Shown here: piece after piece, positions 17,135-63,451 of the stretch | Layout of the letters: each line of letters begins with the position of its first letter | Numbering within the stretch: the first letter of the stretch is position 1 | Assembly (NCBI GenBank): GCA_025603075.1 | Contig: MU626271.1 | Coordinates: 124,001-188,000 of the forward strand | Origin: Neoconidiobolus thromboides FSU 785 | Lineage: Eukaryota; Entomophthoromycota; Entomophthoromycetes; Entomophthorales; Neoconidiobolaceae | Reading direction: 5' to 3' | Length of the DNA stretch: 64,000 bases | Made by a program: the position numbers and the translations under genes | The notes under the pieces: model-generated | Seen by the model: the letters and a program-made list of their open reading frames with translations, nothing else | Database searches by the model: none | Told to the model about the DNA's origin: nothing

Positions 17135-17239
17135 TATGGGGATATATTTTTGTATTTAAGAATTTCACTAACAAATTTTCCACTTAAATAGCGCTTAAAA
17201 AAATGGAAAAAGTAATGAAGTCAAAAAAACGCTCCCATA
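17135..17239 (+). mobile_element. MITE-like element, copy 1
   Basis: Begins TATGGGGATATATTTTTG and ends CGCTCCCATA; the middle has the family signature AAATAGCGCTTAAAAAAATGG. Same orientation as copy 2. Confidence 0.8.
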
Positions 17240-17812
17240 TTGTAAAACCTGATACTTAGTGATTGAAGTCAATAACAGCTATCGCTTGGTTGACTATACT
17301 GTAAGTCGAAAGGTCTTAGTTTATATGACTAGGATGGACTTCAATTATGAAGAATAGCAAGTAACATAATACAGACTATGGAAGAAAAATATAATAGATA
17401 ATACTACTGTAAAATCTACATAAAATACTATTAAGGAAATTTAGTGGCTTTATTAAATGTATAAGGTATCGGGGAATAATTCAGTTAAAAAGCCTTGAAC
17501 TACTATGTTCTAAAATCTGTTTTATACTCTGACAAGTACAAATACCAAAACGAGAAGATAATATTCCTTAAGATGAAGCTAGAAATTCTCATAGCAAATC
17601 AAGCTAAGAGCGGGGATTAATTGTCTCTGAACCCGAGAACATAACAATTTAAGTGATTATTATGTTATAATCAATTATGGAGCTGATAAAGCGATATTTC
17701 ACAATCCCTATGTTAAAAACTTATAAATAAAAGCTTAATTTAGGTTAATTTTTGAATAACTTCTGGGACTAATTCAGACATCCTCTTGTGTTTTAAGTAA
17801 ATACAATAAATA

Positions 17813-17917
17813 TATGGGGATGTATTTTTGTATTTAAGAATCTTACTAACAAATTTTCCGCTTAAATAGCACTTAAAGAATGGAAAAAATAATGAAGTCA
17901 AAAAAGACACTCCCATA
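17813..17917 (+). mobile_element. MITE-like element, copy 2
   Basis: TATGGGGATGTATTTTTG start and ACACTCCCATA end, with the centre AAATAGCACTTAAAGAATGG. Confidence 0.8.
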
Positions 17918-18091
17918 TTTGAAAATTAAATGAATACATTATATATAAATACATATATACATATATCTAGATTAAATGTATGTAAAAATATACAAGTTTT
18001 TTAAAAAAAAGCTACCAGCTTATATATGCTTATGTAAAAAAACATATTAATAGTTGTTATTGATACAATAAATAATAAATAAGAGCTGATA

Positions 18092-18195
18092 TATGGGGAT
18101 GTTTTTTTGGTTTCATTACTTTTTCTATCTTTTGAGCACTATTTTAGCGGAAAAATTATTAGTGAAATTGCTAAACACAAAAATATATCCCTATA
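18092..18195 (-). mobile_element. MITE-like element, copy 3
   Basis: Reverse orientation: TATGGGGATGTTTTTTTGG to ATATATCCCTATA, centre GAGCACTATTTTAGCGG. Confidence 0.75.
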
Positions 18196-18249
18196 TTATG
18201 AAATAATATCATTAAAAGTAAATACAGGGATAAGTTTAGTAACAATAAA

Positions 18250-18351
18250 TATAAGAATATTTTTTTGGTTTCATCACTTTCTATTTTTCAAATACTGTTT
18301 AAGTAGGAAAATTGCTAATAAAGTTCTTAAATAAAAAAATACATTTTCATA
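18250..18351 (-). mobile_element. MITE-like element, copy 4 (degenerate)
   Basis: Diverged reverse copy: TTTTTTTGGTTTCATCACTT, then AAGTTCTTAAATAAAAAAAT and ACATTTTCATA. It lies 54 bp from copy 3 in the same orientation. Confidence 0.6.
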
Positions 18352-19030
18352 TGATTAAAGGTCATTATAAAAATATTAAACTATAAGTTAATTACATCCA
18401 TAATCTTTATTATTTCAATAAAGAATTGATGACGAAGATATAATTACAATGTAAAGAAAGCTATTTTTACTCTAAAATAATCTTTTTAAAATGAAAGCAA
18501 GATTATTTATGAGGCCTTTTTTTGTTTATAAGATCAAGCTTTGGTTCTAATACTTTTTGCATCTAAAATGGTAAAGATATTAAAGTATTTATTAATAGAC
18601 AATAGAGAATAATCGATATTCTTAAAATATTTAAATTCAATATAGATTTATCTATATTGGTTAATGTATTGTGTATTTGATATTAATTGTTGTTTATAAA
18701 GTGGACAGCTTAGAGTTAGATAGGTGTTACAGTTATAAAAAGCCTTTTGAGTTTAAATAGTATTGGACTAACCTGTTGCGAAGGCATTGAGTATAACTAT
18801 TAGTATTTATAGACAATATTTAACAAAATGAAATTAAAAGTCAAAGCTGTAAAATGTCATAATATTATATCTTTAATTTATAATTCATATTTAAAATAGT
18901 TATGATCGCTAAAGAGAAGGTTATGACTATCCATATGGAAATAAATTGCGAAAGATGACGAAACGATCATAAAATGATATCAATTTTACAAAATTTTATT
19001 TCTATAAAATTGTTTCAAATTTAAATAATT

Positions 19031-19713
19031 TTAAATGGAGTCAAGGAAGTTGTTGGCAAGGGAGCAAGAGAGACCAACTGCATCAGGCTAAATAACAGTA
19101 AGGAAACTGGTAAAAAAAAAGTATAAACTATGAACTTACTTCAACATCAAGCTTCTTGACAACACCATTTTCAATATAGGCAGCAAAACGCTTGACACGA
19201 GTACCACCAAGAGCTAAAACAAGGGTTAATACATATCAAAGAAAACTAACAATCTCTTACGAGCAGCAGGGAAGTCAAGACCAAGAGCCTTAGCAAGATC
19301 AGCTTGGAAATCAGCTAAGATGGTGACTTTGCCTTCAGCCTTAGTAGCTTCGGACCAAGCTTGGGTTACAAAAGCATCGTTAACGGTGACACAAACTACT
19401 TCTTCAATGCCTTTGTTTTTGATTTCTTGGTGTCTTTCAATATAAGAGGGTAAATGACTCTATAAAAAGTTAGTGTTCATTACTATTAGTATCATACTAA
19501 TGCTATCTACCTTGGAGCAACCTATAATGAATAGTTAGTAAGTAGTATAATAGCAATAGAAAAGCAAAGCTTACCAGGGGTAAAGGCACCTGGGACACCA
19601 ATCAAGATAGCCTTGTTTAATTTCTTAAAGTGTTCTAAAACGTTAACGTTGTCTTCTGGGTGTTTGTTATGTACAACAACAGATGGTAAAGAGTCTCCTA
19701 CTTTAATGGCCAT
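19031..19713 (-). CDS. Atypical 2-Cys peroxiredoxin (Prx5/Ahp1 type)
   Basis: Five exons (19713-19575, 19521-19511, 19459-19261, 19213-19140, 19087-19031) give 159 residues. Motifs: GVPGAFTPGCSKSHLPSYIE with the peroxidatic Cys at residue 48, VTVNDAFVTQAW, ADFQADLAKALGLDF and RFAAYIENGVVKKLDVEPD. A Cys at 149 in GLSCSLANNFL is the resolving cysteine position of Prx5-type enzymes. It reduces H2O2 and alkyl hydroperoxides using thioredoxin. Length matches the family and no targeting peptide is seen, so cytosol (or a peroxisome by another signal) is likely. The second exon is only 11 nt and carries the catalytic Cys codon. The gene stands alone between long gaps. Confidence 0.94.
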
Positions 19714-21317
19714 TTTTATATAATATAAGTTAATTTATTTTATATCGAAAAGTAAGATTTAAAGCGACTTATATACTTTTTTCATTGAAGTATGATGTCA
19801 GCGCAAAACTCATAATTTATCCATTTCATCCCTTATCATTTTAGTGAACTATTGCTTTTTTTGGTGTTTAATTGATATTTAGGTTACTAACATCTCAGCT
19901 AATTAGCCTAATATTATTAGCAATGGCTTTTTAAGCGAGGTTCTTTTATGCTATCTAGAAGGTGCTAGTCTAATTCTTGAATATTATTATGATACGTCAT
20001 TCAATTTGATTTGTAATCTATTTATTATAGTTTCGATAGAACATTATTATATTTTGTAAAGCTGTTTACCCGTACTAAAGGTTAATTTGTATAAATAAAT
20101 GCAATATTCCTCAATGATAAAACCCTCTTTTAATGCTATCTTTGAGCTGCCTCTAATACAGCAATTATAAAATATTCTATCTTTATTATTCCATTTATTA
20201 ATATTTTTTAGACACTTTTATATAGCACTGAAAATAGTATTCCCAAAGTAATATAACAAAGCTGGGCCAGGAGAAGTATTTCAATAATTTTAAATTTCTA
20301 AGGATCACTAAAGCTCTTCAAATAGGATATAAATTAAGCCAAATCTTTTATAACTTGTTAGTTTATAAATAACTTTTATAATCAATATTATCTATTTTAT
20401 TTTTTACTTATAAATTTAGATTAAGGTGCAATGAGTTTAGCCAGCAATCTAGAAGTTATAAAAAAAGGTATAAGGACTAAAGGATATTAATACACAGAAG
20501 CTAATGATTTATAAAAAGATCAATTTTTTTTTGTAAAACGGCAGTTAAAAGATTTGAATATAAATACTACATGTTATAAATTAGTTTATAACAAATAGAA
20601 TACAATCATTCAAAATAAATTACTATTTTTTGTTAAATTTTGGACACTAAATAGATTTATAATAGCAGCCTAATGATTGGCTAAAAATAAGTTATAATAA
20701 CCTGGGTTTATTTCAAATTTAGCTCATTAAAAATAGTCAATTTATAATTCAATTAAACTCAGTGAAATTAGTAATGTCATGATGCTATAGCAATAAGTAT
20801 TTAGGAATCAGATCGCCTTGATTTTTACAAGTACTTTTTATTATTAAAACAATGTTTTTACATAGCTTTTCACTTTACCAATAACCTTTTTATGGATAAC
20901 TAACGTTTTTTATAAAATGAGTAATTTTTTAAGAAATAAAATAAAATAAAATAAAATGTTCACTCTAAAGTCGATTTCTGATTAAAAAGGTATGGGGATG
21001 TATTTTTTTGTTTAAAATTTTGCTAATCTTTTCCGCTCAAATAGCGCTTAAAGAATGGAAAAAGTGGCGAAACCTAAAAAGCATCCTCATATTTTGAGAA
21101 TATTCGATCATATATAAGAAGTGCTTATAAGTATAAACAAAATCATTTAAGTAAAAAGGATTTCAAATAATTGATAATAAAACTAGGATTCATTAGCTAA
21201 TTTTTATTTAAATAAATTATACCTTATAATAGTTATTAAACTTTTTAATTTATTTTACCAAATACAATAGAAATATAAAAATACTAATTAAGACTTATTT
21301 ATTTATTACTTTTAGCA
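19714..21317. other. Intergenic, no gene seen; one MITE
   Basis: Contains the peroxiredoxin promoter at its left edge, an (ATAAA)n run at about 20934-20957 and one MITE copy at 20991-21091. The rest is featureless AT-rich DNA. Confidence 0.6.
20991..21091 (+). mobile_element. MITE-like element, copy 5
   Basis: TATGGGGATGTATTTTTTTG to GCATCCTCATA, centre CGCTCAAATAGCGCTTAAAG; directly follows an (ATAAA)n run. Confidence 0.75.
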
Positions 21318-22250
21318 TTATTTAACTATAACATATAACTCTTCTTCTTTTTCACTGTCTAGTATTTGTATTAATTTCAAATAATACTGTTGAGTTGAGA
21401 TAGGTATCTTTTTCCCTTTATGATTAATCTTATAAATCTCAAGCTCAACGCTACTATTGTTGATAATTTCCTATAATAATTTAAGCACTATATATCATAT
21501 ATCATTATTAAACTTACTTTATTAACTAAATCTCTAACATGATTTAAGTCGTCTTCAAGTGTTAAATAAACTGCGCCAATTAGTTTACCAACATTACAGT
21601 ATACAATAATTTCAAATAATTTTTTATGTGAAATATGTTTCGTTGTTTGTGTTTGACTATTATTACTAAACCCTAATTATTTAAGCTATAAATTATAATA
21701 AATTATGATAATAGTACCTGAAACTGTATTAAAATCAATAGGATTTAAATTGTCATTTTTAGTTATTGGAATATCTTCTTTAAATTTTTTAACATCTGAC
21801 TGGCTACTCTTATCTAATGGAAGATCTTGTGGCAAATTCCATACTTTATCATAATCTGGATTAGCTAAATAATTAGGTATAAAGCTTTGCCTATCAGCTT
21901 GAACATTAATCTCTATTTTACTTTTCCCCAAAATCTCAAGTATTTGCTGACTCTTTGTTAACTGATATCCTGTTTGACTCTGGTTATTTTTTAACTCAAT
22001 ATCAACGCCATGAAGCAACAATAGCTCTACTATATTCACATGTCCTCTTTTACAAGCCCAATGAAATGCAGTCCTTATAGATTTAATTTTAGTTTGAATC
22101 GGTTTAAAAAGTCAGAAGTGATTATTACCAACCGTTTACAACGTTTGCTGCATTCGGATTAACCCCCAGTGATAACAACGCTTTAACTGCCTTAATGTTC
22201 CCTAGTGCAGAGTATTCACGTAGCTGCTCTTCTTGTTCGCCTTTACTCAT
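21318..22250 (-). CDS. ANKRD40-like ankyrin repeat protein
   Basis: Four exons (22250-22129, 22073-21718, 21672-21518, 21470-21318) give 261 residues. The N-terminus EEQLREYSALGNIKAVKALL begins the first of two ankyrin repeats; NGWTAFHWACKRGHVNIVEL spans the first splice junction. A linker then holds FIPNYLANPDYDKVWNLP, matching the FVPNYLANP motif typical of animal ANKRD40, and the C-terminal domain (KLFEIIVYCNVGKLIGAVYL, EEELYVIVK end) corresponds to that family's ubiquitin-like tail. The cellular role of this family is poorly known; the ankyrin repeats imply protein binding. Human ANKRD40 is longer because of a Pro-rich linker. An orthologue in a fungus is notable. Confidence 0.8.
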
Positions 22251-23368
22251 CTCTTTTTTAAAAACTTGTAAAAGTTTGCTTTTGGAAATTTGTTCTTTTG
22301 TGATTCGCTAAGATTATTAATTTATAAGATAAGCCAGCCAACCTCTGGTTTTTGCAAAACAAGCTAGACTATAGTAATAGCTTTACTTAATTTCTTTCAC
22401 AATCCTTCTCAATCAAACAATGCATCAATGAAAAGGACTAATGACTAACCGAATCGTGTATATTTTTCTATGGCCTGATTCAATTATATGTCTCTTTATT
22501 GATCCATCGTTTGATTGAGAGATACATTATAAATTATTAATTCTATTTCAGAGTTGTTAATAATGAAACATTGTCTACTTTCCATTGGTTTAAAATAGCT
22601 GTTCAGGAAATTCAAAACTAACACTAAATGGAGAGTGCTACTTAACTGTCTTAGTCTAATCAATAATGTTTTTTGGTTGGAACTTGTTTTTTTGATAATT
22701 AAGCTGAATTTATAAAGGTTGGCTTCATAATTACGGTTGTTACTCTTGCAACCTATACCACAAAAAAGGTCAGATTTATAACTTACCTCATAGTTCGTGT
22801 TAAATAATCTAGTTCTGAAATTTTGGGTTTTAGTTTTGAGGTTGAACGGGCAATTAGATAAATTAAGTTATTTTTTACCCTATGGGGGTGTATTTTCTTT
22901 GTCTAAGAATTTTATTAACAATCTTCCACTCAAATAGTACTTAAAAAATGGAAAAATAATGAAATTAAAACATCCCCTATAGCACTTTCATTCAATAAAT
23001 GAACATTGAGAGGAAAAAAAGATATTGTATATAAATTAGCATTTCTAATGATATAATTTTTAAAATATTATAATTGTAATTTAAAAGCAAACTATAAAAA
23101 TTATTTTGATACTTCAAACCATTTAAACTAAACAATTTTAAAGTTTTATGTAAGTTTTAGGGTAAATAATCTAGATTGAAACCTGATCTATAGTAAACCC
23201 AGCATTTAAAAAATAGGTTTGAATTAGGGCTAAGGTTTCTTGGTAAAGCGGTATAATATATAAATAAATATGATGAGCATAAATAAAGATAAATGAGTGG
23301 TATAAAAGAAAGCTTTATATTTGATAAAAAACATTAAAACTATTAAGTGTTATAATCCATTATAAGAA
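22251..23368. other. Intergenic, divergent promoters; one MITE
   Basis: Lies between the divergent starts of the ANKRD40-like gene (22250, minus) and the surface-protein gene (23369, plus). One MITE copy at 22881-22981; no gene seen. Confidence 0.6.
22881..22981 (+). mobile_element. MITE-like element, copy 6
   Basis: TATGGGGGTGTATTTTCTTT to ACATCCCCTATA, centre CACTCAAATAGTACTTAAAA. Confidence 0.75.
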
Positions 23369-23833
23369 ATGCGATTCGATATAATATCATTGGCTTTATT
23401 TATTACACTAATTAACACTCAATTTTCGAACAATAATATCAATCCTTCCCTTAACCCTCAACTTGCTCCTAGCCCTAGACTGAGCCCCCAGAATATTAGT
23501 CCGATTTTAATTGATGACGAGCCTACAAGTACACGTAATAAGTTTCCGGTAACCACTAGCATTAGGGCATCAACAGGTTTTGGTGATATAAGGTCAACGA
23601 TGGAGTTCACTTCTACTCGAACTCCAAATGGCACAAAAACTGTTTCAACTTCTAGTCGTTCCAATATGTCGAGCAGCACCTCAAGTTCAACAGATCCTAA
23701 GTCTACCACTAGTAAAGCGTTTACCAATGTATCGGTTAAAACTTATAGTTCTACAAGCAATGGACTTAAATTACAGGCTGGGTATTTAAGTTGTTTCTTG
23801 GTTGGTATAGGTTTAGGTATTTTTTATTATTAA
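23369..23833 (+). CDS. Predicted GPI-anchored or cell-surface Ser/Thr-rich protein
   Basis: A single exon encodes 154 residues. The signal peptide is MRFDIISLALFITLINTQ, followed by a Pro/Asn-rich stretch and then a Ser/Thr-dominated body (about 50-125; e.g. SSSTSSSTDPKSTTS) suited to dense O-mannosylation. The C-terminus is a hydrophobic stretch (YLSCFLVGIGLGIFYY) preceded by SSTSNGLKL, the form expected of a GPI attachment signal with a small-residue omega site near SNG. This is the usual plan of small fungal cell-wall or plasma-membrane mannoproteins. No enzymatic domain is visible. Codon composition is less AT-rich than the surrounding spacer, which supports real coding. A minus-strand frame overlapping it is a shadow. 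Confidence 0.7.
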   Translation: MRFDIISLALFITLINTQFSNNNINPSLNPQLAPSPRLSPQNISPILIDDEPTSTRNKFPVTTSIRASTGFGDIRSTMEFTSTRTPNGTKTVSTSSRSNMSSSTSSSTDPKSTTSKAFTNVSVKTYSSTSNGLKLQAGYLSCFLVGIGLGIFYY

Positions 23834-23989
23834 TTTTAATACGCTATAAACAAATCATTGTTATTTTAGTTCGTTTTTTATTCTAATTTAATACTTACTA
23901 TTTAAATTACCATTGTTAGATATATATTACAACCTTACAAAGTTTAAAATACTCAATTGTTAATATAATCAGTTTTACTCTTATTATCA

Positions 23990-24020
23990 AAAAATAAAAT
24001 AAAATAAAATAAAATAAAAT
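23990..24020. repeat. (AAAAT)n microsatellite
   Basis: About six pentamer units, 30 bp left of an inverted MITE pair. Confidence 0.85.
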
Positions 24021-24048
24021 ATTTAATACAGTTTTATCAGTTTTAGCA

Positions 24049-24152
24049 TATGGTGTTGTTTTTTTTGGTTTCCTTATTTTTCCATTTTTTAAGCGCTATT
24101 TGAGCAGAAAGATTGTTAGCAAAATTCTTAAACAAAAAAACACATCCCCAAA
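24049..24152 (-). mobile_element. MITE-like element, copy 7 (left arm of inverted pair)
   Basis: Reverse copy from TATGGTGTTGTTTTTTTTGG to ACACATCCCCA; over about 77 bp it is the exact reverse complement of copy 8. Confidence 0.85.
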
Positions 24153-24163
24153 TAATAATTAAA

Positions 24164-24266
24164 TATTGGGAATGTATTTTTTGTTTAAGAATTTTGCTAA
24201 CAATCTTTCTGCTCAAATAGCGCTTAAAAAATGGAAAAATAAGGAAACCAAAAGAACATCCTCATA
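24164..24266 (+). mobile_element. MITE-like element, copy 8 (right arm of inverted pair)
   Basis: Forward copy from TATTGGGAATGTATTTTTTG to ACATCCTCATA, separated from copy 7 by about 11 bp. Confidence 0.85.
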
Positions 24267-27192: not shown

Positions 27193-27343
27193 TAGTTTTT
27201 ATTCCATTTAATTTTGTTTGAGGTTAACCAAAAATGTTTCTTTTAATCTTACTTTGAATTTTTCTATATATTTTTCACTTTTTAAATAAAATATAATTAT
27301 AACTGATGTTTGTTATTTTTAATACAGTTTTATTTAATAGCAA

Positions 27344-32634: not shown

Positions 32635-32736
32635 TATAGAGTTTTCTTGGTTTCATCACTTTTTCCATTTTTTAAGCGCTATTTAGGTAGAAAAACTAGT
32701 TAGTAAAATCCTTAAACAAAAAAACACATCCACATA
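32635..32736 (-). mobile_element. MITE-like element, copy 9
   Basis: Reverse copy: TATAGAGTTTTCTTGGTTTC to ACACATCCACATA, centre AAGCGCTATTTAGGTAG. Confidence 0.75.
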
Positions 32737-32788
32737 TGCTTAAATTATGATTTAATATTTCAAATAATTAAAACAAACTTTATTTGTA

Positions 32789-32893
32789 TATGGGAGTGTT
32801 TTTTTTGGCTTCATTACTTTTTCCGTCTTTTAAGCACTATTTAAGTAGAAAGATTGTTAGCAAAATTCTTAAACATAAAAATGCATCCCCATA
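32789..32893 (-). mobile_element. MITE-like element, copy 10
   Basis: Reverse copy: TATGGGAGTGTTTTTTTTGG to ATGCATCCCCATA; 52 bp after copy 9 in the same orientation. Confidence 0.8.
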
Positions 32894-33204: not shown

Positions 33205-33309
33205 TATGGGGATGTATTTTTGTGTTTAAGAATTTTGCTAACAATCTTTCTATTTAAATAGTGCTTAAAAGACGGAAAAAGTAATGAAGCCAAAAAAAAC
33301 ACTCCCATG
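33205..33309 (+). mobile_element. MITE-like element, copy 11
   Basis: Forward copy: TATGGGGATGTATTTTTGTG to ACACTCCCATG, centre TTAAATAGTGCTTAAAAGAC. Confidence 0.8.
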
Positions 33310-33616
33310 TATAAAATTGCCAGACTTGTTTTGATTTGTTTTATTCCTCTACTAAAATCAAATATAATAACTATAGATTTTTTAATTCTTCTAGTTATAT
33401 TAATAGACTGATCTATTCTATTTTTAATAATATTTTATAGTATAGTAAATACATTGCATTATTTTAAGTTGTTGAACGATTTCAAACTTTTATTATTCAA
33501 TTATTAAATTTTTTTTTTATTTCATTAATTTCCATTGTTTTAATCAGACTATGCTTTGAAATAAATTTTTTGTTTTTTTACAATATCTAAAAAGTATTAA
33601 TAGAAATATATTACAA

Positions 33617-33719
33617 ACGGGGATGTATTTTTGGATTTAAGAATTCTACTAACAAACTTTCCGCTTAAATAGCACTTAGAAATGAAAAAAATAATGAAGT
33701 CAAAAAAAAACGCTCCCAA
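33617..33719 (+). mobile_element. MITE-like element, copy 12
   Basis: Forward copy: ACGGGGATGTATTTTTGG to CGCTCCCAAA; the terminal TA is mutated. Confidence 0.75.
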
Positions 33720-35074
33720 ACTCTTTTAAAAGTAGAACAACTTTATTAACAAAACAATTCAAATTAACATCTTAACAATTGATGGTCACTTTAAATATTT
33801 AGCTTGTTTTTGCTATACTAAAAGCAATAATAGTACAGAAATTAAAACATTTGTTCGGACCATGTAAAATTAACTATCAATAATAGTAAAATAGATAAAC
33901 TCTTTAGAAAAATTTAAAAGTAAACACCGTAATTATTTTATCCACAATCGAAATAAATGAAGAGATGGTTTACAAGAAAATAAAACTACAAACAAATCCT
34001 ACCCCTCTGTTGGTGAATATACAAACATTTTCCACTAAAACTTCAAAGATACCTTGATAATTTCGGTTGAATAACACAAATTACACATAAAGTAATGTTT
34101 GATATTTAACAAAAACCGCTCTGAGTTTATTTCACTTTCTCAGGTCCCTTAAGTTAGTCAAAAGAATAGTATGGCTCACTTGCAATTTTAACATAACTAA
34201 ATAAAAGCCTTTGAACATATCATGATTAGAAAAAGGCCTTTACCGAAGCAATGAGTAACTATGAGGCCTTTTGGAAGACAAGCCGACTCTACTATTTTCT
34301 ATTTCAATCTCAACATAGTCCTCAAAAAAAATTGAGCAAGCTCCTTGTAGCTTAATTAGAGTCGCCATGGAATATTTTAGCTCATATTACTTTACCCACT
34401 TTTAATTTCAAAAATTTATTATATCAAAACCTTTATCACCTACTGTTTCCTATACATGTGACTAAATGGCTTGATTTTAAGTTGAAATATATTAATTCAA
34501 AAAAAGATTAAAATCACTTTTTATTTACCATCATCACAAATACTACTCTTACTTTTATTTAAATAATCTCTTAAGTGTCCTGAAACATGACTATGAATAT
34601 GCCTAAAAAGTTGGATCAGCTTTTTTATCTGCTAATACCTGGCTGTTATTATAAAGCCAGGATAGTAACATGAAACTCAGTTATTTGAGTAATCTCTTCA
34701 TGGATTTTTGCAATAAAAGCCTTTTTGATTCATCATTTCATATTCCTAGTATTTCGTAGCTTTGAAAGATGCAACATTACATAAACTAAAATATCAGTTA
34801 TAGCCTTATATTAGTTTTGTTTAATTATCTTGCTATGTAAACCCATAGTCAAATCTCTGCTGATCGTTATATATTTTTTGCTTCAGTTTATATTATGTTT
34901 CTATAATATGTTCTACTCCCATATAGATATCAGATTATGTCAATAGTATAGTATTTTTCGGAAAATTTTAAATGAAATATTGGGAAATCAAAAATGAAAG
35001 ATGAAAACGATAAAATGAACTAAAAACGAATTTAATCTAATTTAAAAAACATATTTTTATACTATACAGAGGGA

Positions 35075-39918: not shown

Positions 39919-40021
39919 TATGGGGATGTTTTTTTGGCTTCATCATTTTTTCCATTTTTAAGTACTATTTGAGTGGAAAAATTGTTAGTAAAATTCTTAA
40001 ACATAAAAATACATCCCCATA
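39919..40021 (-). mobile_element. MITE-like element, copy 13
   Basis: Reverse copy: TATGGGGATGTTTTTTTGG to ATACATCCCCATA, an excellent match at both ends. Confidence 0.85.
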
Positions 40022-44040: not shown

Positions 44041-45498
44041 ATTTTGTTTTGCTATATGCTAATATCTTATATATACTGTTCTTTTACTTAAATACTTTTA
44101 AAGTAATCAAACAAAGTTCTATGTTCTATTTTTAATTTTATTCACTAAGCTGAAGGCTTTTTATTGGTTGGGATCATACTAAAAATTTTATTTGAATTTG
44201 CTTTTCATTTTTTAAGCCCAAAATGTTCCATTTATAATCATTATTTTTTAAACTCGTTACTAATCATACTGTAATATTTTATATCATATTGTAATAAGTT
44301 TTTAGGCTATAGTTTTATAATATAAAGCAAATTAAAACTAATAGTTTTGATACTTATTTTTTTATTATCATTTTATTACTATTTCAACATCAAGTATTGA
44401 CTTTATATTGTTTTCTTAAATTAAAATTTAATCCCTTATCATGTTAAAAACTTGTTAAATTATAAATTAAAAAACCTGATACAATGTATTAATTTTATTT
44501 ATATAATAAATTAAAATGAACATTCGTAAATGGAACTATATTCTTCAATGACGTTTACCTCATTTTATTTAAAAAATCAAAATTACTTTTTGCTTATAAT
44601 AGTTTACTTTTTTATTAAATGGAAATAAAAACTTTTAAAAATAATACTAAAACTTTATCCAATACAGAAGATTTAATCTTTTTACAACTTACTGAAATAT
44701 TATCATATGAGAACAAGATCTAAGCCTTCTTTCTAATATTTTATATTTTATTTGATGACTAAAATAATAAATAGTGATAAAAGTAAAAAAAACTCATCAT
44801 TAAAAATTATCATTATTAATGTTTGGAATAAACCTTTATTAAATAATACATATCTAGTATTTTCATTTAAACAAAATCATGACAAGATAGCAAAAAACTC
44901 ATTTGTTTATATTAATTTTATACACTTTATTACCGTTCTTGTATTATGTCCTAAACAGAACAATATACTTATAAAATAAAATATCATGTTAAAAACTTAA
45001 GATGTAATATTCGAAAAAAATAAAGTGGTAAAAGCAAAATGCTTACTATACAACAACAATTATAAACAACTAAAAAATTACTATATGGGGATGTATTTAA
45101 GGATTTTACTAACAAGTTTTCCACTCAAATAGCGCTTAAAAGATGGAAAAGTAATGAAGCCAAAAAAACACCCCCATATAATTAAATAGTAGTGAAAAAA
45201 AGAATAAAGTTAATGGAATGACAATTAGGCTTAATATATTAAAATTGATTTTTAAGAGTGTAAAAACAAGGAAATAATAAAAAAGTGTATATTAGGTTTT
45301 ATATAAAAGTTTTTTATAAAGGTACTTTAATACATATTAATTTTGTTATTGTTTTTTAATATTGTCTAATGCAATAGCTGGTAAATTATCTTGCTCTATT
45401 TTGATCAGTTTAATAGTTTATTAAACAACAAATTACTCTTTTTAATTATAGTAAAAAGATTAAGAAATAATCATAATTGTTTTATTTAATAAATGATA
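44041..45498. other. Intergenic with one MITE
   Basis: HSF-type gene promoter at left; MITE copy 14 at 45084-45178, about 320 bp downstream of MFS copy A. A 75-codon ORF at 44752-44979 is Lys/Asn/Ile-rich and unsupported. Confidence 0.55.
45084..45178 (+). mobile_element. MITE-like element, copy 14 (short internal deletion)
   Basis: TATGGGGATGTATTTAAGG to ACACCCCCATA, about 95 bp; the TTTTTGTTT stretch after the left end is missing. Confidence 0.8.
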
Positions 45499-47059
45499 TC
45501 AACTATTATTGATAATAGATTTAGAAAGATAGCAATTAAAAAAAGCAACTCCAGCCAAGATTATAAGGGACGGATTTAAAATATTAAAATAATAATTTTT
45601 CATTGCACTAAAGTAAACAAATAAAGGATCTAAAGTAATAGATGCTTGAATCAAATCGAGAATACTATAACCACCGAATGCTAGACCAAACACAGCAAAT
45701 TTACCTATATTTATATCTTTTACTTTAGATAATAACAAAATTATTGAAAGATTAGAATATAAGAAGCATACAGGTAAAGATATAAAAGTCAAGTTAACTA
45801 ATAAAACAAAGAGAAAAGTAGGAAGAATGGACTGTAAAAAATTGATTACAATCATACAAATAAATTCAATGACAATTATACTGTAAGTAATATTATAAAT
45901 ATAGCTTGAATTAAATTTGTTTAAAATAGTGGGTAAATAAAGATAACTTAAAAGCAAAGTTCCTACTACAAAAAGAAGTAAGGTGGGAAAAGGGCCTTCA
46001 AAGGTTATACCTAAGCCACCCATTTTGGTGTCAACCATATACCATGCTGGGAGACTTGTCATCAGATTCACAATTAAAAATTGATTCAATATATATGAAA
46101 TAATTAAAAGTGAAGTTTTTTTAGTAAGTAATTTAAGTGCAAAGTAATAATATAGAACATTTTGGGACGAATTAATAGAATCGTAATTGTTGTTATCCAT
46201 ATCATTAACTAATGTTTGAGTTTCGTCACTTTCAGTCAGAAGTGAAATAGTATCTAATTTATCCTCCGAAGGTAATAATAAAGAATTAGAACAATAACCA
46301 AGTATCATAAATATAATGGCATTGCATAAAGCTGGAAATAATAAAGGATATTGAAGGAATATTAATTTAAGAGTAAACCAATTTGGGATTTGATTTCTGT
46401 AAGACCCAAAAAATAAACTTACAACATACCATAATGAATAGGTAAACAAGTTACTAAAAAATAATAGTGTATATGCAAAACCTATAATTAATTAATACAA
46501 TAATCTCCATATGATAAATATATATACTTTGATATTTTGATTGATAAATAATTGATATAAGCCCATAAGGAATAGTCTCTAATCCATTAGATAAACCTAG
46601 ATTAAGTAAAATAACACGAATAGAAAAGAGATTTGGTGATATGGATAAAAGTACTACTAAGATAGATGCTGCATAAATTGATGAAGGTACAGTTTTTTTG
46701 GCTCCATATTTATCAGTCAAATAGCTAACAAAAATTATAGCTATAGGTACCATATATTTAAAATAATTAAAACTTGACACAATGTAGAGGTACATTTCAT
46801 GCTAATCATGTGGAGCGCCCCCCAACTCGATTAAAGCCTAATAATTTTATTAGTTTATAGAATTGAATTATCATTAGGTTTACAATTCTATGAAGAGTTT
46901 CAATAAATAGTTTAAACGCTTTAACAAGGCCATATAATAAAAGTATTTTTAAATAACTTAAATCTGGAAAGTAAGAGGAATCTAGTTGTGGTTTGTTAAA
47001 ACTTTATATTCTATTATATTCTATTATATTCTATTATTACTAGTTATCATTGAAGTCAT
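45499..47059 (-). CDS. Major facilitator superfamily transporter, copy A (possibly impaired)
   Basis: By analogy with copies B and C the exons are 47059-47041 (MTSMIT), 46981-46884, 46837-46528 and 46481-45499. Motif A-like VSYLTDKYGAKKTV lies in exon 3, and about 12 membrane spans are predicted overall. With the conserved exon 3 acceptor the frame meets TAG at 46804-46802 (GAPHD stop HEMYLY), where C has Arg. That TAG itself forms an AG acceptor: starting exon 3 at 46801 keeps frame and drops 12 residues, giving 457 residues. So the copy is either a pseudogene or rescued by a shifted splice site. Substrate unknown. Intron 1 carries a 10-bp tandem repeat. Confidence 0.7.
47005..47039. repeat. 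10-bp tandem repeat in intron 1 of MFS copy A
   Basis: About three and a half units of TATTCTATTA. Copy C has a similar (TATAA)n run in the same intron, so the intron is prone to slippage. Confidence 0.8.
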
Positions 47060-53305: not shown

Positions 53306-54076
<771 letters not shown>

Positions 54077-55785: not shown

Positions 55786-57006
55786 GTTATATAATAAATT
55801 AGGAATAATAGTAGAGCTAACTAGTTTTAAAATAGAAAGTATTTAAATTGAATTGGAAGTTTAAGAGGTCCTATTTATATTATTATTTTTTATACTTTTT
55901 TCAGTTGCTTTTTTCACCCCATCTTTTTAGAGGTTGAATCTCTTTCTAACTTTTCCATTGAGAAAATTGAGATCCTGAACATACTAATTTCGATCTTCAC
56001 TCTTAGATCGAAAGTAATTTTTTAATGGGTGGGTGACAAAAGATAGTACTAACAGAAATCATGAGATTGTACTGATTGGCCTGTGATTACATTAAACCAA
56101 TCAAGTATATGAAAAAGATAACATTCTTGATATTTTACGTAAAATAAAATTTCGATCTCTACGACATTTTTCTACAAAATTATCTCAAAACGGTAAGTTA
56201 AAATTAAAACTCAAGTTTGTGTTGCATTTATAATTAAATCCATTCTAATAACTTCACACTGAGTCGAGACGTAAATAATAGAGTAACTTTCTTTAATTTT
56301 TCATAGTAACTTTGACAATTAAAAAGTTAACTTCTGAACCCACGCCTATCAAATAAGGATAATTAAAACTCCTTTGAACACGTAGCTAGCATTTTAATTA
56401 AATATTTATCAAATAGATGCTGCTCAGGATATTTTAATATAAAATGCTGGTAAGGGTGAACTTGGGATTTATATTATGTTTGTGGCAAAAGTCAAATTAA
56501 AGTTTTATTAAATTTGTTAAATAAAAATTAATTTTTAATTTAAGGTTGAATTTCTACTGTTTTTTTTCAAATGCTTACTGAGAAATTAGAACTGACATGT
56601 TAAAAATATTCAATAATAGCTTATTATATTAATAATATTTAATCTTATTATTGATAATTGTATAAAATTTGAGATTATGATATGTAGATTCATATTTTTG
56701 TAATCAATAGTTTATTTATTAATATTAATTTAATATTCATTTTATGACTCAATATTCCAAGTTGCTAGAATTGAATGCTGGTTTTATGACTGGGTTTAAA
56801 TACTGAAACAATTACAGTTTTAGATCAAAATTTTAAAATTAATAATTTCTTTTATTATTCTTATATCATTAGATAATTTTAAATTGATTTCGCAAACAAA
56901 ACCTAATCAATTAGCTTGATTTATAGCTTCCTATGATATTATCAATTTCAAATTGTATTTTAAAGCATTTATTATTAAAGCAATATTGTGATTAATGAAT
57001 AAGTTA

Positions 57007-57112
57007 AGTGGAGATGTATTTTTATATTTAAGATTTTACTAACAAATTCTCCGCTTAAATAGCGCCTAAAAAGATAGAAAAAGTAATGAAGCCAAAAAAA
57101 CAGCCCCAAGTA
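57007..57112 (+). mobile_element. MITE-like element, copy 15
   Basis: Starts GTGGAGATGTATTTTTATAT and ends ACAGCCCCAAGTA; centre CGCTTAAATAGCGCCTAAAA. Confidence 0.75.
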
Positions 57113-57253
57113 TTTTTTTTTGAAATTTATTTTTATTAATAAAGGTTTAAGTTTAGGCTTTATTGTAACTAATTCATAAGTTTAATAAAACAGTAAGCTA
57201 ATTATGGCTTCAAAACATTAAACTATATGTTCAAAAGCATTTATCAAAAGGAG

Positions 57254-57303
57254 CAAAAGTATTGATAATAAAGTTCTTAAAAAACAAAAATACATCCTCA
57301 TAT
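57254..57303 (-). mobile_element. Truncated MITE-like element, copy 16
   Basis: Only the last half remains (AAAGTTCTTAAAAAACAAAA, then ATACATCCTCATA). Confidence 0.6.
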
Positions 57304-57839
57304 GGTAATTTATAATATTATCTTCGAAAAAATTATACTTTCATGTATATTCAACTATTAATTATCAAGTACTTTCAAATATGCTGCTATATAAATCTTT
57401 TATCCATTATCAGAGTAATTTTATAAATAGTAAAATATTTAATTATGGGGTTTTAAAAGCAAATTTAATAGGATCAAATGAATTCTATATACAATTATAA
57501 TTGAAGTTCGAGAGAACACTAAATAAAAAATCAATCATATTTTACTTGGATTGTAAAACCAGGTGTATAAAGAGCTAACTTTCGGATTACATCTCTAAGT
57601 CTCAAGTAATAAAAGATTATTGATCATCTTTGTCTATAATCTTTACACCGTCCTCTCGTTCTATATTGAAAAAATTCTTAATGAATAAGAATTTCAAGGT
57701 TTTTTAATTTGTTGTATCTTAAAACTTATATCATCTAATTACAATTAGAATTTTTGATTTTTTTGGTATTTGATAAAAATATCCGATGTCTTTTTACCGA
57801 ATATCAAGGAAAGTAATAACCATGACTGTAATAAACTAT

Positions 57840-57980
57840 CATAAGGCTAATTTCTTGATTTCTACGAAAAATGAGAGCTTTCCGCAGCTATAAGTTGAGT
57901 AATTCTTTAGAATTAACGTATCCTTGCTATATGATACTTCAACTCAAGCTTATGATTTGGTGTTCTTATTTGGCATATGG
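57840..57980 (+). promoter_or_regulatory. Conserved 5' flank of MFS copy B
   Basis: AAGGCTAATTTCTTGATTTC, GAGCTTTCCGCAGCTATAA and AAGCTTATGATTTGGTG recur upstream of copy C. The stretch 57899-57942 is inverted relative to C. Conservation in a non-coding flank may reflect recent duplication or retained regulatory sites. Confidence 0.6.
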
Positions 57981-58026
57981 TATAAATTAGAGTGTTTTTT
58001 TTACTTGTAGTCTATTTTTCTTAAAA

Positions 58027-59589
58027 ATGGGTTCAATATCAACTGGTAATAAGAGTATTATCTATAATATAAAACTAAATTTTAATAAAACTATAACTAG
58101 GTTCAGCTCATTTTTCGTATTTGAATTGTTTCAAAATAATCTTATTATATGGTTTTATTGACGTATTACCACTGTATATCAACAATCTTTATACTAATGT
58201 AAATATAGCAACAATTTAACCCTTACAAATTAATGGAACTTTTAGACTTTAGTAGAACTGGGTGGGGGCCCACGTAGTCGCCTTGATAAGAGGGTTTATC
58301 TTATATCAAATTTTAATTATTTTGATTATGTGGTACCTATAGCTATAATTATCATTGGATATGTAACTGATAAATACGGAGCTAAAACAATTATACGATT
58401 GTCAATTTATACAACATCCATTTTAATAGTACTTTTGTCTATATCACCAAACCTCTTTTTTATTCGGATTACTTTAATTGGCTTGGGGTTATCTAGTGGA
58501 CTGAAAGTTATTCCTTATGGACTTATAGCAATTCTCTATGAATCCAAACATCAAAGTATTTTCAAATTTACTACTTTAAAGTTGATAAATTAACTACTTA
58601 TAGGTTTCGCGTATGCATTGATAATATTTAGTAGTTTATTTAATGTGGCCATTTCGGATGCTATAGGATCTTTTTTTGGATCTTATAAAAATCAAATTCC
58701 AGATTGGTTCATTCTAAAATTAACGTTTCTTCAATATCCGCTATTATTCCCTGTTTTATGCAGCGCTACTGTATTAGCTATATTTGGCTATTATTTTCAT
58801 TACTTATTACCTTCGGATGATAAATTAGATAATAATCTACTTCTAATTAAAAATGATAAAGCTCAGGCGTCAATGTATGATACAGCGAATCCCAAGTATG
58901 TTTTTATCAACTCATCTCAGGATACCTTCTATTCCCAATTTTTAACTAAGTTGCCTACTAAACGAACTTCCCTTTTGATTGTTTCATATGTATTAAACCA
59001 ATGCTTAACTACATCTGCAATGATGGTATTACCAGGATGGTATATAGGTATGTTTGGGACTGATAGAAATGATTTAGTTTCAGGCTTTGAAAGTTTTTTT
59101 CCTGCTACAATCCTATTTATAGCAGCCACTTTGCTCTTAAGCTCACTCTATTTACCTACCGCCTTAAACAAATTTAAGCCAAGCTATGTATATAATATTG
59201 CTTGTAGTGGAATTTTCATTGTATTTCTTTGCTTAATCATAATTAACTTTCTACAACCAATCATTCCTATTTCATTCCTTGTTTTTTTAGTTAATTTGGC
59301 TCCAACATCTTTACTTGTATGTTTTTTATGTTCCAATTTTTCAGTAATATTATTATTAGCAAAGGTAGAAGATATAAATGTAGGAAAATTTACTGTCCTT
59401 GGTTTGGCATTTGGTAGCTATGACATTCTTGATAAAATCCAAGGGTCTCTTGTTTTAAAATCTTTACTTGTTTACTTTAGTGCCATTGAAAGTTGGAATA
59501 TCTATGTCAAAGTTTCCCTTTTTATCTTAGGCATAATTGCTTTTCTCAATCGTTATCTTTCCCAAGTTATTTTCATTAATAGTAATTAA
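58027..59589 (+). CDS. Major facilitator superfamily transporter, copy B
   Basis: Four exons: 58027-58045 (MGSIST), 58101-58198, 58246-58555 and 58604-59589, giving 470 residues with all frames open. Splice positions and the lengths of exons 2 and 3 (98 and 310 nt) are identical to copies A and C. Exon 2 supplies the first span (FKIILLYGFIDVLPLYINNL). Exon 3 has the loop 2-3 motif IIGYVTDKYGAKTI followed by two spans and GLGLSSGLKVIPYGL. Exon 4 contains the remaining spans with a hydrophilic central loop (about residues 220-260), giving a 12-TM MFS fold. The substrate cannot be read from the motifs. The 19-nt first exon and 98-nt second exon are invisible to ORF finders, which makes the gene look 5'-truncated. 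Confidence 0.8.
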
Positions 59590-60067
59590 TTAATATTATT
59601 TATTAAATAAAATAATACGGATCGTATATTGTCTTATGTGTTATATTCAATTGCACTAAAATGTTTATTTTTCGATACTTTTATTACTTTTAAAAATAAT
59701 ATAGTTTTCTAATAAAGTATAGGTTCAATAAATTGAGCGAAATAACTGTTATCACTATATGCTATTAAAAAGATTACTCTACCATTATTAATAATTATGC
59801 TTTATAAAAATATTAAAATTAGCGTTATTTAATATACAATACTCTTGTTATAGTATAGTTTACATTTAATAATAATTTTTATCTGTTCAAGCTTAACTAA
59901 TCTCTTATCTGCTTTATATTATTTTGCTATTATTATTTAATCATAGCCCAATTTTACATCAGGCTATATATAAGATGTAAAGTAACTATTTTATTTATAT
60001 AAAAGAGTTTTTGAATACTACTTTTTGTAGACTTTTTTTTTAAAAATCCTCAAAAACAAACAAACAA

Positions 60068-60168
60068 ATGGGGGTGTTTTTTTGGCTTCATTATTTTTTC
60101 CATCTTTAAACACTATTTGAGCGAAAAAATCATTAATAAAATTCTTAAACACAAAAAAACATCACCAA
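60068..60168 (-). mobile_element. MITE-like element, copy 17
   Basis: ATGGGGGTGTTTTTTTGG to ACATCACCA; reverse orientation. Confidence 0.75.
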
Positions 60169-60226
60169 ATCCCCAAGTGCTTTATTATTTAAATAAAATA
60201 TTACAAGTTAACAAAAGAAGCAATAA

Positions 60227-60327
60227 ATGGGGATGTCTTTTTTAGCTTCATTACTCTTTCTATTTTTTAAGCGCTATTTAACTGGTAAAATTAGTAAAGC
60301 TCTCAAATAATAAAATGCATTCTCAAA
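60227..60327 (-). mobile_element. MITE-like element, copy 18
   Basis: TGGGGATGTCTTTTTTAGC to GCATTCTCAAA; reverse orientation with a small deletion near ATTAGTAAAGC. Confidence 0.7.
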
Positions 60328-60929
60328 TTATTTTTAGGCAAACACAACCTTTCTTGCTTTTAGATAAACAAGTTACTGCTACTGAGTGAGAAAAACCTTT
60401 ACTTTAGCCATTCTCAACTAAATAAAAAAAATCCTGAAGGACAAGAAAGGGTTAGATTAAATGCTATTTTTTTATGTATTTTATAGATGGTTTTTCTAAA
60501 CTTGTTAATTTTTCACTTTTAGTTGTAATATTTATTTTCAAACACATCAAATACTTCAAAAAAAAATATTGAAAAAATATTGAATACACTGCTACATAAA
60601 AATTTTCTCGTTAAGATAATTTCCAAAATAAAACATTTAACTACAATAGTTAAAAAATCAAGGTGTAAGGTTAGTAAATTTTCTCATAAGAACTTGAATA
60701 AAAATGAGAATTTCATTTTATTTGAGTTGTTAAAATTTAATACACAAAAAGCTAACTTTCATCTTAGACTTCTGATTCTGAAAGAGTAGCCACTTATTTC
60801 ACATTCGTATACGATCCTTTTTCATTGGTATATGCTCTCGTTATTGAAAGCAACCTTAGCCGCTTTAAGGAGATTAATTTTCTCAATTTGTTCCACCTTA
60901 TAAACTTACATCATCTAACTACAAATCAT

Positions 60930-61070
60930 AAGGCTAATTTCTTTATTTTTATGAAAAATGAGAGTTTTCCGCAGCTATGAATTGAATTAAAGTATCGTAT
61001 AGCAAGAATACGTTAATTCTAAAGAATTACTTAAGCTTATGATTTGGTGTTCTTATTTGAGAGGCAATAT
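60930..61070 (+). promoter_or_regulatory. Conserved 5' flank of MFS copy C
   Basis: Counterpart of 57840-57980; the segment 60987-61030 is the reverse complement of the copy B sequence with 3 mismatches in 44 positions. Confidence 0.6.
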
Positions 61071-61112
61071 AAATATGTTATATTTATATTTCATAAAAGC
61101 ATTTCTTAAAAA

Positions 61113-62719
61113 ATGGGATCAATATCAACTAATGACAGTGATAATATTCATGATAGGGTATCAACTAGTAATAAAAACATTAAATATAATATAATATAAT
61201 ATAACTTATTAATAAAATTATGACTAGCTTCATCTCGTTTCCCAGATTTAAATTATTTAAAAATAATTTTATTAACTGGGTTTATTCATGTATTTATACT
61301 ATGTATTTCAAATATATCTATAAATGTAACTTTAGCAATAAATCAATTTCTATACATTAATTGAACTCTTAGACTTTATTGGAGCTAGAAGGGCTTCCCC
61401 ATGATCGTCATGAAAAAAAATATTATATTGTATCCAACTTCAATTACTTTCAATATATGGTACCTGTAGCTGTAATTCTTGTTAGCTATTTGACTGATAA
61501 ATATGGAGCCAAAAAAACTGTATCTCTATCAATTTATGCTATATCCATTTTAATAGTACTTTTGTCTATATCACCAAACCTCTTTTTTATTCGGATTACT
61601 TTAATTGGCTTAGGCTTATCTAGTGGACTGAAAGCTATTCCTTATGGACTTATAGCAATTCTCTATGAATCCAAACATCAAAGTATTTTCAAATTTACTA
61701 CTTTAAAGTTGATGAATTAATTAATTATAGGTTTTGCATATACTTTATTATTTATCAATCAAATTCTCAGTGGAATTATCTATTATATTATAATCTTTTT
61801 TAAGTCTTATAAAAATCAAATTCCAAATTGGTTCATTCTAAAATTAGTATTCCTTCAATATCCTCAATTGTTCAATGCTTTATGCAGTGCTATTATAATT
61901 TTAATATTTGGTTATTATTCTCGCTCACTACTATTACCTTTGTATGATAAATCAGATACTACTTCGCTTTCAATTAGAAGTGATGAAACTCAAACATTAA
62001 TTAGTGATATTGATAATACAAACTACAACTCAATTAATTCATCTCAGGATGCTTTATATTTTCGCTTTATACCTAAATTACCAACGGAGAGAACAGTACT
62101 TTTAATTGTTTCGTACATTCTAACACAATTTTTAATCACAAATGCAATGATCATATTACTTGAATGGTATATGTTAATGTTTGAAATTGATAAACATGAC
62201 TTAGGTTTAGGTTTTGAAAGTTTTTTTCCTATCATAATCTTTTTTGTAGTGGTTGCTTTTCTCTTAAGTTATCTATATCTACCTAGTACTTTAAACAAAT
62301 TTAATCCAAGCTATGTATATAACATTACTTGTACTGCAATTGTTATAGAATTTGCTTATTTAATAGTGGTTATCTTTTTACAACTAGTCCTTCCTACTTT
62401 TTTTATTACCATATCAGTTACTTTAATCGCTATATCTTTACCCATATGTTTTTTATATTCTAATTTTTCAGTAATGTTATTACTAGCAAAGGTAGAAGAC
62501 AGAAATGTAGGTAAATTTACTGTGTTTGGCTTGGCATTTGGAGGCTATGGTATTCTTAAATCAGTACAAACATCTATTAATTTTAAAGATATATTTGCTT
62601 ACTTTGGTATTATTGAAAATTATTGGATTATTTTTGTTAAGGTTTTCCTTATTATCTTAATCATAATTGCTTTCCTCAATCGTTATCTTTCCCAAATTAT
62701 TTTCGTTAATAATAATTAA
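61113..62719 (+). CDS. Major facilitator superfamily transporter, copy C
   Basis: Four exons: 61113-61167, 61228-61325, 61373-61682 and 61731-62719, giving 483 residues. Exon 1 is longer than in B (MGSISTNDSDNIHDRVST). Exon 3 starts TLLELEGLPHDRHEKKYYIV and has VSYLTDKYGAKKTV; the stretch LLSISPNLFFIRITLIGLGL is identical to B. About 12 spans in all, with an acidic/Asn-rich central loop after LLLPLYDKSDTTS. B and C are in tandem about 3.1 kb apart; A, on the other strand 14 kb away, matches C better than B around exons 3-4 (for example SDETQTL and INSSQ). No disabling mutation was found in C. Substrate unknown. Confidence 0.82.
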
Positions 62720-62878
62720 TTAATATTATTAAATAAAATAATACGGATTGTATATTTTTTGTATGCTCTATTCAGCTATAATAAAATAGTCATGTTTCAA
62801 TCTTTTTATTGCTTTTAAAACAATAGCTTTTTAATAATACATAAGTTCCATAAATAGAGCAGAATAATTACTAACATT

Positions 62879-62984
62879 ATGTGGGGATGTATTTTTTATT
62901 TAAAAATTTCACTAACAATCTCTCCGCTCGAACAGCCCTTAAAAAATGGAAAAAGTAATGAAATAAAAAAAATATTCCCATGTA
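62879..62984 (+). mobile_element. MITE-like element, copy 19, absent from the paralogous site
   Basis: GTGGGGATGTATTTTTTATT to ATTCCCATGTA. The flanks AACATTATG and TATTAAAAAG correspond to contiguous sequence near 59755-59770 in copy B. Confidence 0.85.
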
Positions 62985-63352
62985 TTAAAAAGTCATTATC
63001 ACATTACCAATAATTCAACTTCTAAAAGAATGCAAAAGTTGAAATTATCTAATATACATTATTTTATTTACTTTGTTGTGCTTTTGTTGCTGCTACTTAA
63101 TCCCAACTTAAGTTTGGATCAGCTTATGAATACTAAATACAATAAACACTTTATTTTTAAATATATTAGAAACTTTAACTAATATTAATATGGTTGATTA
63201 TTGCTATTTCACCTAATAGATTGCTTAAATCCTTAGATCAAGAAAGTAAACTCATCGAAAAGAAAAAAAGATCCCATTTAGTTAAATATTTCCATTATTT
63301 CTCATGTATTTCTTACTTTTTTTATCTTTAATATATTTCATTCTACAATTTG

Positions 63353-63451
63353 AGACTGTTTTTTTTGGTTTCACTATTTTTCCATTTTTTAAGCGCTATT
63401 TGAGTGGAAAAATTGTAGTAAAATTCTTAAACAAAAAAATATATCCCCATT
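63353..63451 (-). mobile_element. MITE-like element, copy 20
   Basis: TTTTTTTTGGTTTCACTATT to ATATATCCCCATT; the left terminal GGGG block is degraded. Confidence 0.7.

Follow-up and report, generated by a model that had tools for sequence, protein, structure and literature searches.

What are the short, closely similar sequences that recur in the intergenic DNA of Neoconidiobolus thromboides FSU 785, and what moved them? The stretch analysed here, referred to as the window, comprises 64,000 nucleotides (C14:124001-188000) of a 23.1-Mb, 392-contig assembly, in which a Tc1-derived protein encoded on C3 matches an annotated N. thromboides FSU 785 protein with 100% identity over 95% of the query. 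A preliminary description of it had recognized about 20 elements of roughly 100 bp, interpreted as miniature inverted-repeat transposable elements (MITEs) with a Tc1/mariner-type TA duplication and confined to gene-poor gaps. The repeat, its copies and its ends are borne out by our analyses; the confinement to gene-poor gaps and the TA at both edges are not. We find that the elements very probably constitute a family of non-autonomous DNA transposons of ~98 bp that duplicate 4 bp of target and use a transposase supplied in trans, and that the family has probably been mobile recently.

Copies in the window and across the assembly

Copies were collected from the window with an iterative nhmmer profile, with the reversed window as a control. 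Nineteen were recovered in both orientations, the weakest with E=2.3e-15, and a larger model adds one fragment (57251-57299, E=0.0047) that is probably the truncated twentieth copy reported earlier; the best match in the reversed window has an E-value of only 0.99 with the first model and 1.6 with the larger one. All the features noted previously recur in the window copies: the shared ends, the central AAATAGCGCTTAAAAA block and the run of T with GG. There is no copy in the first 17,134 bases, in agreement with the preliminary description, for which P=0.0027 assuming independent, uniform copies, a value that is optimistic because the copies cluster. All 20 listed open reading frames (ORFs) of at least 150 aa are free of the 19 copies, a comparison that bears on the earlier statement about uninterrupted exons and introns at the level of long ORFs only. 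Seven of the 19 copies lie only 163-481 bp from such an ORF, six of them on its 3′ side, and confinement to gene-poor gaps is therefore too strong a description for copies that are intergenic rather than limited to gene-poor land.

The genome-wide search recommended at the outset indicates thousands of copies. The exact end TATGGGGATGT occurs 1180+1208 times in the assembly (2388 exact ends) as compared with 2+4 for the backward control pattern, and requiring both ends to be exact (R/Y allowed at one position) together with A/T at the outer positions yields 483 matches, at least one site being counted twice, versus none in the control. Scaling by the 19 copies and seven exact ends of the window extrapolates to about 6,480 copies genome-wide, and the pooled density of the window plus 93 kb at or beside DDE_3 transposase genes (44 copies) extrapolates to 6,468, or about 6,500; with ~100 bp per copy this estimated number represents ~2.8% of the assembly. 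Two suggestions as to how neighbouring copies might be arranged were rejected: gaps of 56-60 bp looked over-represented in the loci that we fetched, but genome-wide 29 pairs spread over about 20-75 bp (the pattern allowed gaps of about 15-75 bp, and lengths were worked out by hand), and a dimeric element finds no reflection in the spacers between neighbouring copies, which look unrelated by eye.

Each element is an imperfect palindrome of ~98 bp with the ends GGGGATGT..ACATCCCC. The majority consensus of 133 copies has 100 bases counting the terminal T and A; its terminal 9 bases are perfectly inverted, the remainder is imperfectly palindromic, and the predicted hairpin fold has an energy of -27.3 kcal/mol (z -4.8 relative to mono-shuffles). 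Divergence from the consensus has a median of 11% (range 4-34%) in this set, which leans young because best matches to a query are over-represented in it, and is 12% for 18 window copies. Of 155 profile hits (redundant hits from overlapping loci and some double calls of the palindrome included), 140 span the full length, and within the sequence examined the family shows no gradation into longer relatives. We also note that the consensus CpG sites at positions 45-46 and 56-57 are replaced by TG or CA in 47% and 33% of the 133 copies respectively, by TA in 8% and 5%, and by other dinucleotides in 4% and 3%, a pattern as would be expected from decay of methylated cytosines, to which subfamily structure could contribute.

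The target duplication and independent insertion

An initial count of 93 copies with recognisable ends found TA on both sides in 56, TA on one side in 17, an identical non-TA dinucleotide in 16, unequal non-TA dinucleotides in four, and inverted dinucleotides in none, and a genome-wide pattern requiring a non-A second base on both sides gave 55+58 matches (some sites matching on both strands) versus 0+0 in the control. These early patterns were unable to show the full length of the duplication because the outer bases were fixed in them, and a 2-bp duplication with fixed A..T neighbours was the model held at first; it was replaced after copies had been anchored on their inner cores, leaving the neighbouring bases unconstrained, and a permutation test applied.

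With core anchoring, 110 of 163 examined copies were kept, 80 of which have four identical flanking bases; after six loci picked for non-TA are dropped the proportion is 72 of 101. These 72 identical 4-mers comprise ATAT (54), ATTT (5), AAAT (3), AAGT (2) and eight others found once each, including TTAT, TGAT, GTAT, ATAC, ATAA and AAAC, and the centre is other than TA in 14. Nine copies have a non-A first base or a non-T last base on both sides: six are the fully identical 4-mers just named, one is TCAT/TTAT, and the remaining two (ATAC/TATC and CTAT/TATA) look mis-anchored. Eight of the nine agree between the two sides at the departing base; such matching departures at positions 1 and 4 thus occur eight times in the 110 copies, whereas the maximum of 200,000 permutations is six. 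Such correlated departures need a 4-bp unit, and a 2-bp TA model does not explain the six copies. The duplicated unit is thus best explained as 4 bp with the consensus ATAT (A-N-N-T), the middle of which is the 'TA' seen originally. No other repeat length or offset rises above z 2.3, as compared with 10.4 for the central two bases (older anchor). The target is also palindromic around ANNT, with A at the 7th base to the left in 72% and T at the 7th base to the right in 69%.

Twelve window copies are anchored by both cores, and nine of these have identical 4-mers (ATAT in six, and AAAC, AAGT and ATTT in one each), such that three of the nine duplications lack TA; by inspection, TA is at both edges of only 7 of the 19. 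The preliminary description had proposed that copies without a TA duplication, or ends extending beyond the proposed boundaries, would indicate a different type of repeat, and the outcome is intermediate: TA is missing from about a fifth of copies, and relative to the proposed boundaries the ends (GGGG..CCCC) are one base further in and the duplication extends one base further out.

Unoccupied sites were sought using joined flanks; many of the matches were to the element itself or to neighbouring copies, and nine pairings of six insertions were aligned. The insertion at L040 (ATAC/ATAC) sits inside another dispersed repeat, and unoccupied relatives of the site in L044 and L055 read ...TATACTC..., with ATAC present once and the C native to the target; L040 alone informs the duplication length, because its outer base is C. 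A second place in L055 and one in the window are more diverged relatives of this site. The dispersed repeat itself (window 17473-17544, L044:96-174, L055:2177-2252 and 2518-2596) is ~84-87% alike to the L040 flanks, with 70-80 bp seen. The L029 insertion shows the gap that either model, 4 bp or 2 bp, predicts.

Elements that are 100% identical are found in unrelated flanks at L034, L035, L055 and L056, with centres TA, TA, TT and TC, and L047, L049 and L051 provide a second set of identical elements; both sets were drawn from a best-match search and hence come from the youngest end of the family. Of 70 close pairs (at least 96% identical), 23 combine a TA copy with a non-TA copy and one more pairs two non-TA centres that differ, showing that the duplicated bases come from the target and are not inherited. 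A dinucleotide carried along with the element, in the style of serine recombinases, was rejected on the basis of mixed close pairs among copies not picked for this property.

The elements are short, uniform and non-coding, with inverted ends, a target duplication and a high copy number, and the original assignment to MITEs is upheld by their uniform ~100 bp length, the thousands of dispersed copies, the duplications, the unoccupied site and the identical copies in unrelated flanks. We propose that a transposase supplied in trans would have recognized the near-palindromic ends and placed the element into a palindromic AT-rich target, A-n-n-[A-N-N-T]-n-n-T, mostly ATAT, where a 4-base stagger would lead to the four target bases being copied to both sides. 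We infer that a DDE-type cut-and-paste enzyme was responsible and acted recently, and that it has since been lost, escaped assembly or belongs to a family outside those searched.

There are nonetheless observations that weigh against this interpretation. Identical 4-mers are absent from 29 of the 101 anchored copies (17 are one substitution apart and 12 more), and 53 of the 163 examined were either unanchored or duplicates of another counted copy. Of the eight matching departures, two fall in copies with otherwise unequal 4-mers (TCAT/TTAT, and ATAC/TATC, which is probably mis-anchored). The base to the left of GGGG is T in 96% of copies and the matching right-side base agrees in only 88%; right-only departures number nine and left-only none. 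Several of those right anchors look shifted by indels, but there is some residual chance that the element itself carries a terminal T. Only L040 and L029 of the six aligned insertions show the predicted gap: L044, L055 and L011 are ambiguous, as is L036, whose alignment to a possible empty site shows a longer gap. Because 98+4 and 100+2 give the same gained length, empty sites alone cannot separate a 4-bp duplication from a 2-bp one with a terminal T/A. Four selected copies (L065-L068) that are 95-100% identical in unrelated flanks all have AAAT, for which their selection may account. Lastly, the search of seven families, which did not include piggyBac, Kolobok, Sola, hAT or MULE, turned up neither an autonomous element nor an active transposase.

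Candidate transposases and alternative explanations

The preliminary description had noted the absence of a transposase from the window, and this holds within the scope examined: none of the genome-wide matches to the seven transposase or integrase families is on C14, and a Pfam scan of 10 of the 20 long ORFs found none. Elsewhere in the assembly there are 24 matches to DDE_3 (Tc1-like), 20 of which were fetched as loci L009-L028, each containing the match with flanks of up to 1.5 kb, shorter where a contig ends. In these 20 loci the gene is never bracketed by unpaired ends of the MITE type; L012, L014 and L018 have MITE copies on both sides of the gene, although on the right the copy is a fragment in L012 and is truncated by the end of the locus in L014. 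The genes are on C225, C162, C96, C3 and other contigs, with several clustered on C225 and C162; the gene family is ~25% diverged in DNA, and no terminal repeats of its own were found.

Alignment of 17 long DDE_3 frames shows that each lacks at least one catalytic residue. Asn replaces the first catalytic Asp in eight of nine group-A proteins and the second in the ninth; the second residue is Asn in all four group-B proteins; and in the other four frames the first or second position is altered, to Asn, Cys plus Asn, Gly or His respectively. For L011, alignment to Sleeping Beauty fixed the second and third positions, and a FIDE-type motif that we take to mark it fixed the first; those of the remaining proteins were set by an alignment of 20% identity. 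The other seven matches include three that are broken or short and four that were not fetched, one with a 386-aa open frame, so that an intact gene may exist among the matches. Pairwise ratios of non-synonymous to synonymous substitution (dN/dS, NG86) range from 0.20-0.51 for group A (36 pairs) and from 0.22-0.37 for group B (six pairs), rough values as dS is often near or above 1. Judged from their sequences, these genes look like domesticated, catalytically dead transposases.

Searches with the other families were less productive. DDE_1 has two matches, in genes with CENP-B/pogo-type domains, the second of which (L060) has a frame showing only CENP-B_N by hmmscan, and an inverted-repeat scan of both loci found AT-rich imperfect pairs only and no MITE-type ends. 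The earlier suggestion that full-length elements with the same ends might surround a transposase gene was thus pursued in 20 DDE_3 and two DDE_1 loci, with ~1.5-kb flanks, and none was seen. Transposase_1 (PF01359), Plavaka and Transposase_21 have no matches genome-wide, and likewise none in the control genomes. A six-frame search of the assembly without bridging of introns gave nothing for DDE_Tnp_4 (PF13359) at E<=0.001 (1 of 14 control genomes is positive), and rve has no match at the same threshold (6 of 14 are positive), the latter indicating that the assembly seems nearly free of recognisable long terminal repeat elements.

These results bear directly on the Tc1/mariner (Stowaway-like) assignment, which supposes a 2-bp TA duplication and an IS630-Tc1-mariner transposase. 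The TA on both sides of 56 of 93 copies and the presence of Tc1-like DDE_3 proteins are as this assignment predicts, and ATAT resembles the palindromic target preference of Tc1-type elements. Moreover, one re-analysed Sleeping Beauty dataset is described as having 54% non-TA insertions; the same report presents Sleeping Beauty non-TA insertions as mainly aberrant, one-sided events (PMC7987939), whereas the 16 of 93 non-TA copies here have perfect dinucleotide duplications and compare with about 1.4% non-TA insertion for Sleeping Beauty (PMC5801840). Together with the correlated outer-base departures, the 14 of 72 non-TA centres, the catalytic alterations in the 17 aligned DDE_3 frames and the lack of bracketing ends at the 20 fetched loci, this leaves the assignment largely contradicted already, and we consider it very unlikely. 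An ISL2EU/PHIS-type element, which would duplicate 2 bp within an A|NN|T target and have ends starting GG, is highly improbable as well: the PHIS survey describes an A|AT|T target with conserved outer A and T and terminal inverted repeats (TIRs) usually starting GG (PMC4482050), and a TA-duplicating fungal PHIS lineage is reported (PMC12730594), but the outer A and T act as shared target bases, PF13359 is without a match, and the survey records ISL2EU only from animals (PMC4482050).

A dispersed structured regulatory or RNA element, rather than a transposon, might be suggested by the near-palindromic hairpin and by the predominance of the 3′ side among copies within 500 bp of a long ORF (six of seven). 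The target duplications, the unoccupied site and the identical copies in unrelated flanks argue otherwise, the window has no Rfam match at gathering scores, and we regard this explanation as extremely improbable. More plausible, if still on the unlikely side, is a Kolobok- or Sola-like element, which would be a special case of the non-autonomous transposon with a 4-bp duplication and RR..YY termini that we favor; Sola elements make 4-bp duplications. Kolobok elements are described as making 4-bp duplications, having 5'-RR..YY-3' ends and occurring in fungi, and KolobokP as making 3-5 bp duplications without strong target choice (PMC9587614). The GGGG..CCCC ends fit this pattern, whereas the canonical Kolobok target is TTAA and not ATAT or ANNT; the comparison draws on duplication and termini.

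We suggest that the Tc1/mariner label be dropped and the family be listed as unassigned, with a 4-bp ANNT duplication and GG..CC ends; Kolobok-like elements would be the first to consider as relatives. A more speculative proposal, to which we attach rather little probability, is that the MITEs represent an undescribed cut-and-paste lineage of entomophthoralean fungi (4-bp A-N-N-T, GGGG..CCCC) whose activity was recent enough for some copies still to be identical, and that the altered Tc1-like genes, apparently under purifying selection, are DNA-binding remnants that may act on or repress them. We found no published description of this family within our searches of the Conidiobolus/N. thromboides and general MITE literature, supplements not covered. 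MITE-Hunter has been used on C. coronatus in one published study. A survey reports 13.5% repeats and 0.01% Ty3 elements for N. thromboides, and its main text contains no word beginning 'MITE' or 'miniature' (PMC10515909).

Other features of the window and related systems

The copies in the window are listed in Table 1. Three frames at 45499-46449 (-), 58618-59589 (+) and 61868-62719 (+) resemble one another on visual inspection and lack Pfam matches; they apparently form a local family of membrane-type proteins. The poly(A) polymerase frame of the window matches an N. thromboides protein at only 37% identity, and the 120 hits listed of 902 include no near-identical one, as would be explained by a paralogue or by a gene absent from the annotation.

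Table 1. Members of the repeat family located in the window, in window coordinates.
Feature	Position	Strand	Match and flanking bases
MITE copy	17138..17236	+	E 1.2e-25; duplication ATAT at 17134-17137 and 17237-17240
MITE copy	17816..17914	+	nhmmer; ATAT both sides
MITE copy	18095..18192	-	nhmmer; ATAT both sides
MITE copy, decayed ends	18255..18344	-	E 2.3e-15; ends not anchored
MITE copy	20993..21089	+	nhmmer; TA either side; ends not anchored
MITE copy	22883..22980	+	nhmmer; 4-mers CTAT/TATA unequal; right end probably shifted by indel
MITE copy, one of close inverted pair	24050..24150	-	nhmmer
MITE copy, partner of 24050..24150 in inverted pair	24167..24264	+	nhmmer; 4-mers TATT/ATAC unequal
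MITE copy	32636..32734	-	nhmmer
MITE copy	32792..32890	-	nhmmer; ATAT both sides
MITE copy	33208..33306	+	nhmmer; 4-mers ATAT/ATGT unequal
MITE copy	33619..33717	+	nhmmer; AAAC at 33615-33618 and 33718-33721, lacking TA and ending in C on either side
MITE copy	39922..40018	-	nhmmer; ATAT both sides
MITE copy	45087..45175	+	nhmmer; ATAT both sides
MITE copy	57010..57107	+	nhmmer; AAGT both sides, no TA
Probable truncated copy	57251..57299	-	E 0.0047; model positions 2-49
MITE copy	60070..60166	-	nhmmer; ATTT (element-strand reading) both sides
MITE copy	60228..60325	-	nhmmer
MITE copy	62882..62980	+	nhmmer; centre dinucleotide TG both sides
MITE copy	63351..63449	-	nhmmer

An ATAT-type 4-bp duplication can be mistaken for TA, a pitfall when MITEs of AT-rich genomes are classified automatically. 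Recent insertions of these MITEs could serve as strain markers.

Comparison with known systems reveals partial likenesses to several. piggyBac differs in its TTAA target, absent among the 72 identical 4-mers, and in having CC..GG ends where those here are GG..CC. IS3EU of rust fungi has TAYGG..CCRTA ends (PMC12730594) that resemble TATGGGG..CCCCATA here, but makes 6-bp duplications, a candidate length that we rejected (offset 2, k=6, z only 0.2), and rve is without a match in the genome. In ISL2EU (PHIS), as here, a conserved outer A and T flank the duplicated bases and the ends start with G; it differs in its 2-bp AT duplication, its restriction to animals in the survey (PMC4482050) and the absence of a PF13359 match in this genome. 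The Stowaway/Tc1-mariner MITEs, including the fungal mimps, are likewise short, AT-rich, imperfect palindromes, and TA is central in most duplications here; theirs are 2 bp as opposed to 4 bp, about a fifth of those here lack TA, and mimps are described as 200-220 bp long with ~27-bp TIRs resembling impala (PMC3599309). BmMITE-10 of the silkworm is a MITE with an ATAT duplication, listed as a novel family (PMC2997013), but it is an insect element of 258 bp whose TIR (CGTCGC...) is not alike. Kolobok, including KolobokP, differs in its canonical TTAA target; at the level of the published description it shares with the N. thromboides elements a 4-bp duplication, purine-purine..pyrimidine-pyrimidine ends and occurrence in fungi (PMC9587614).

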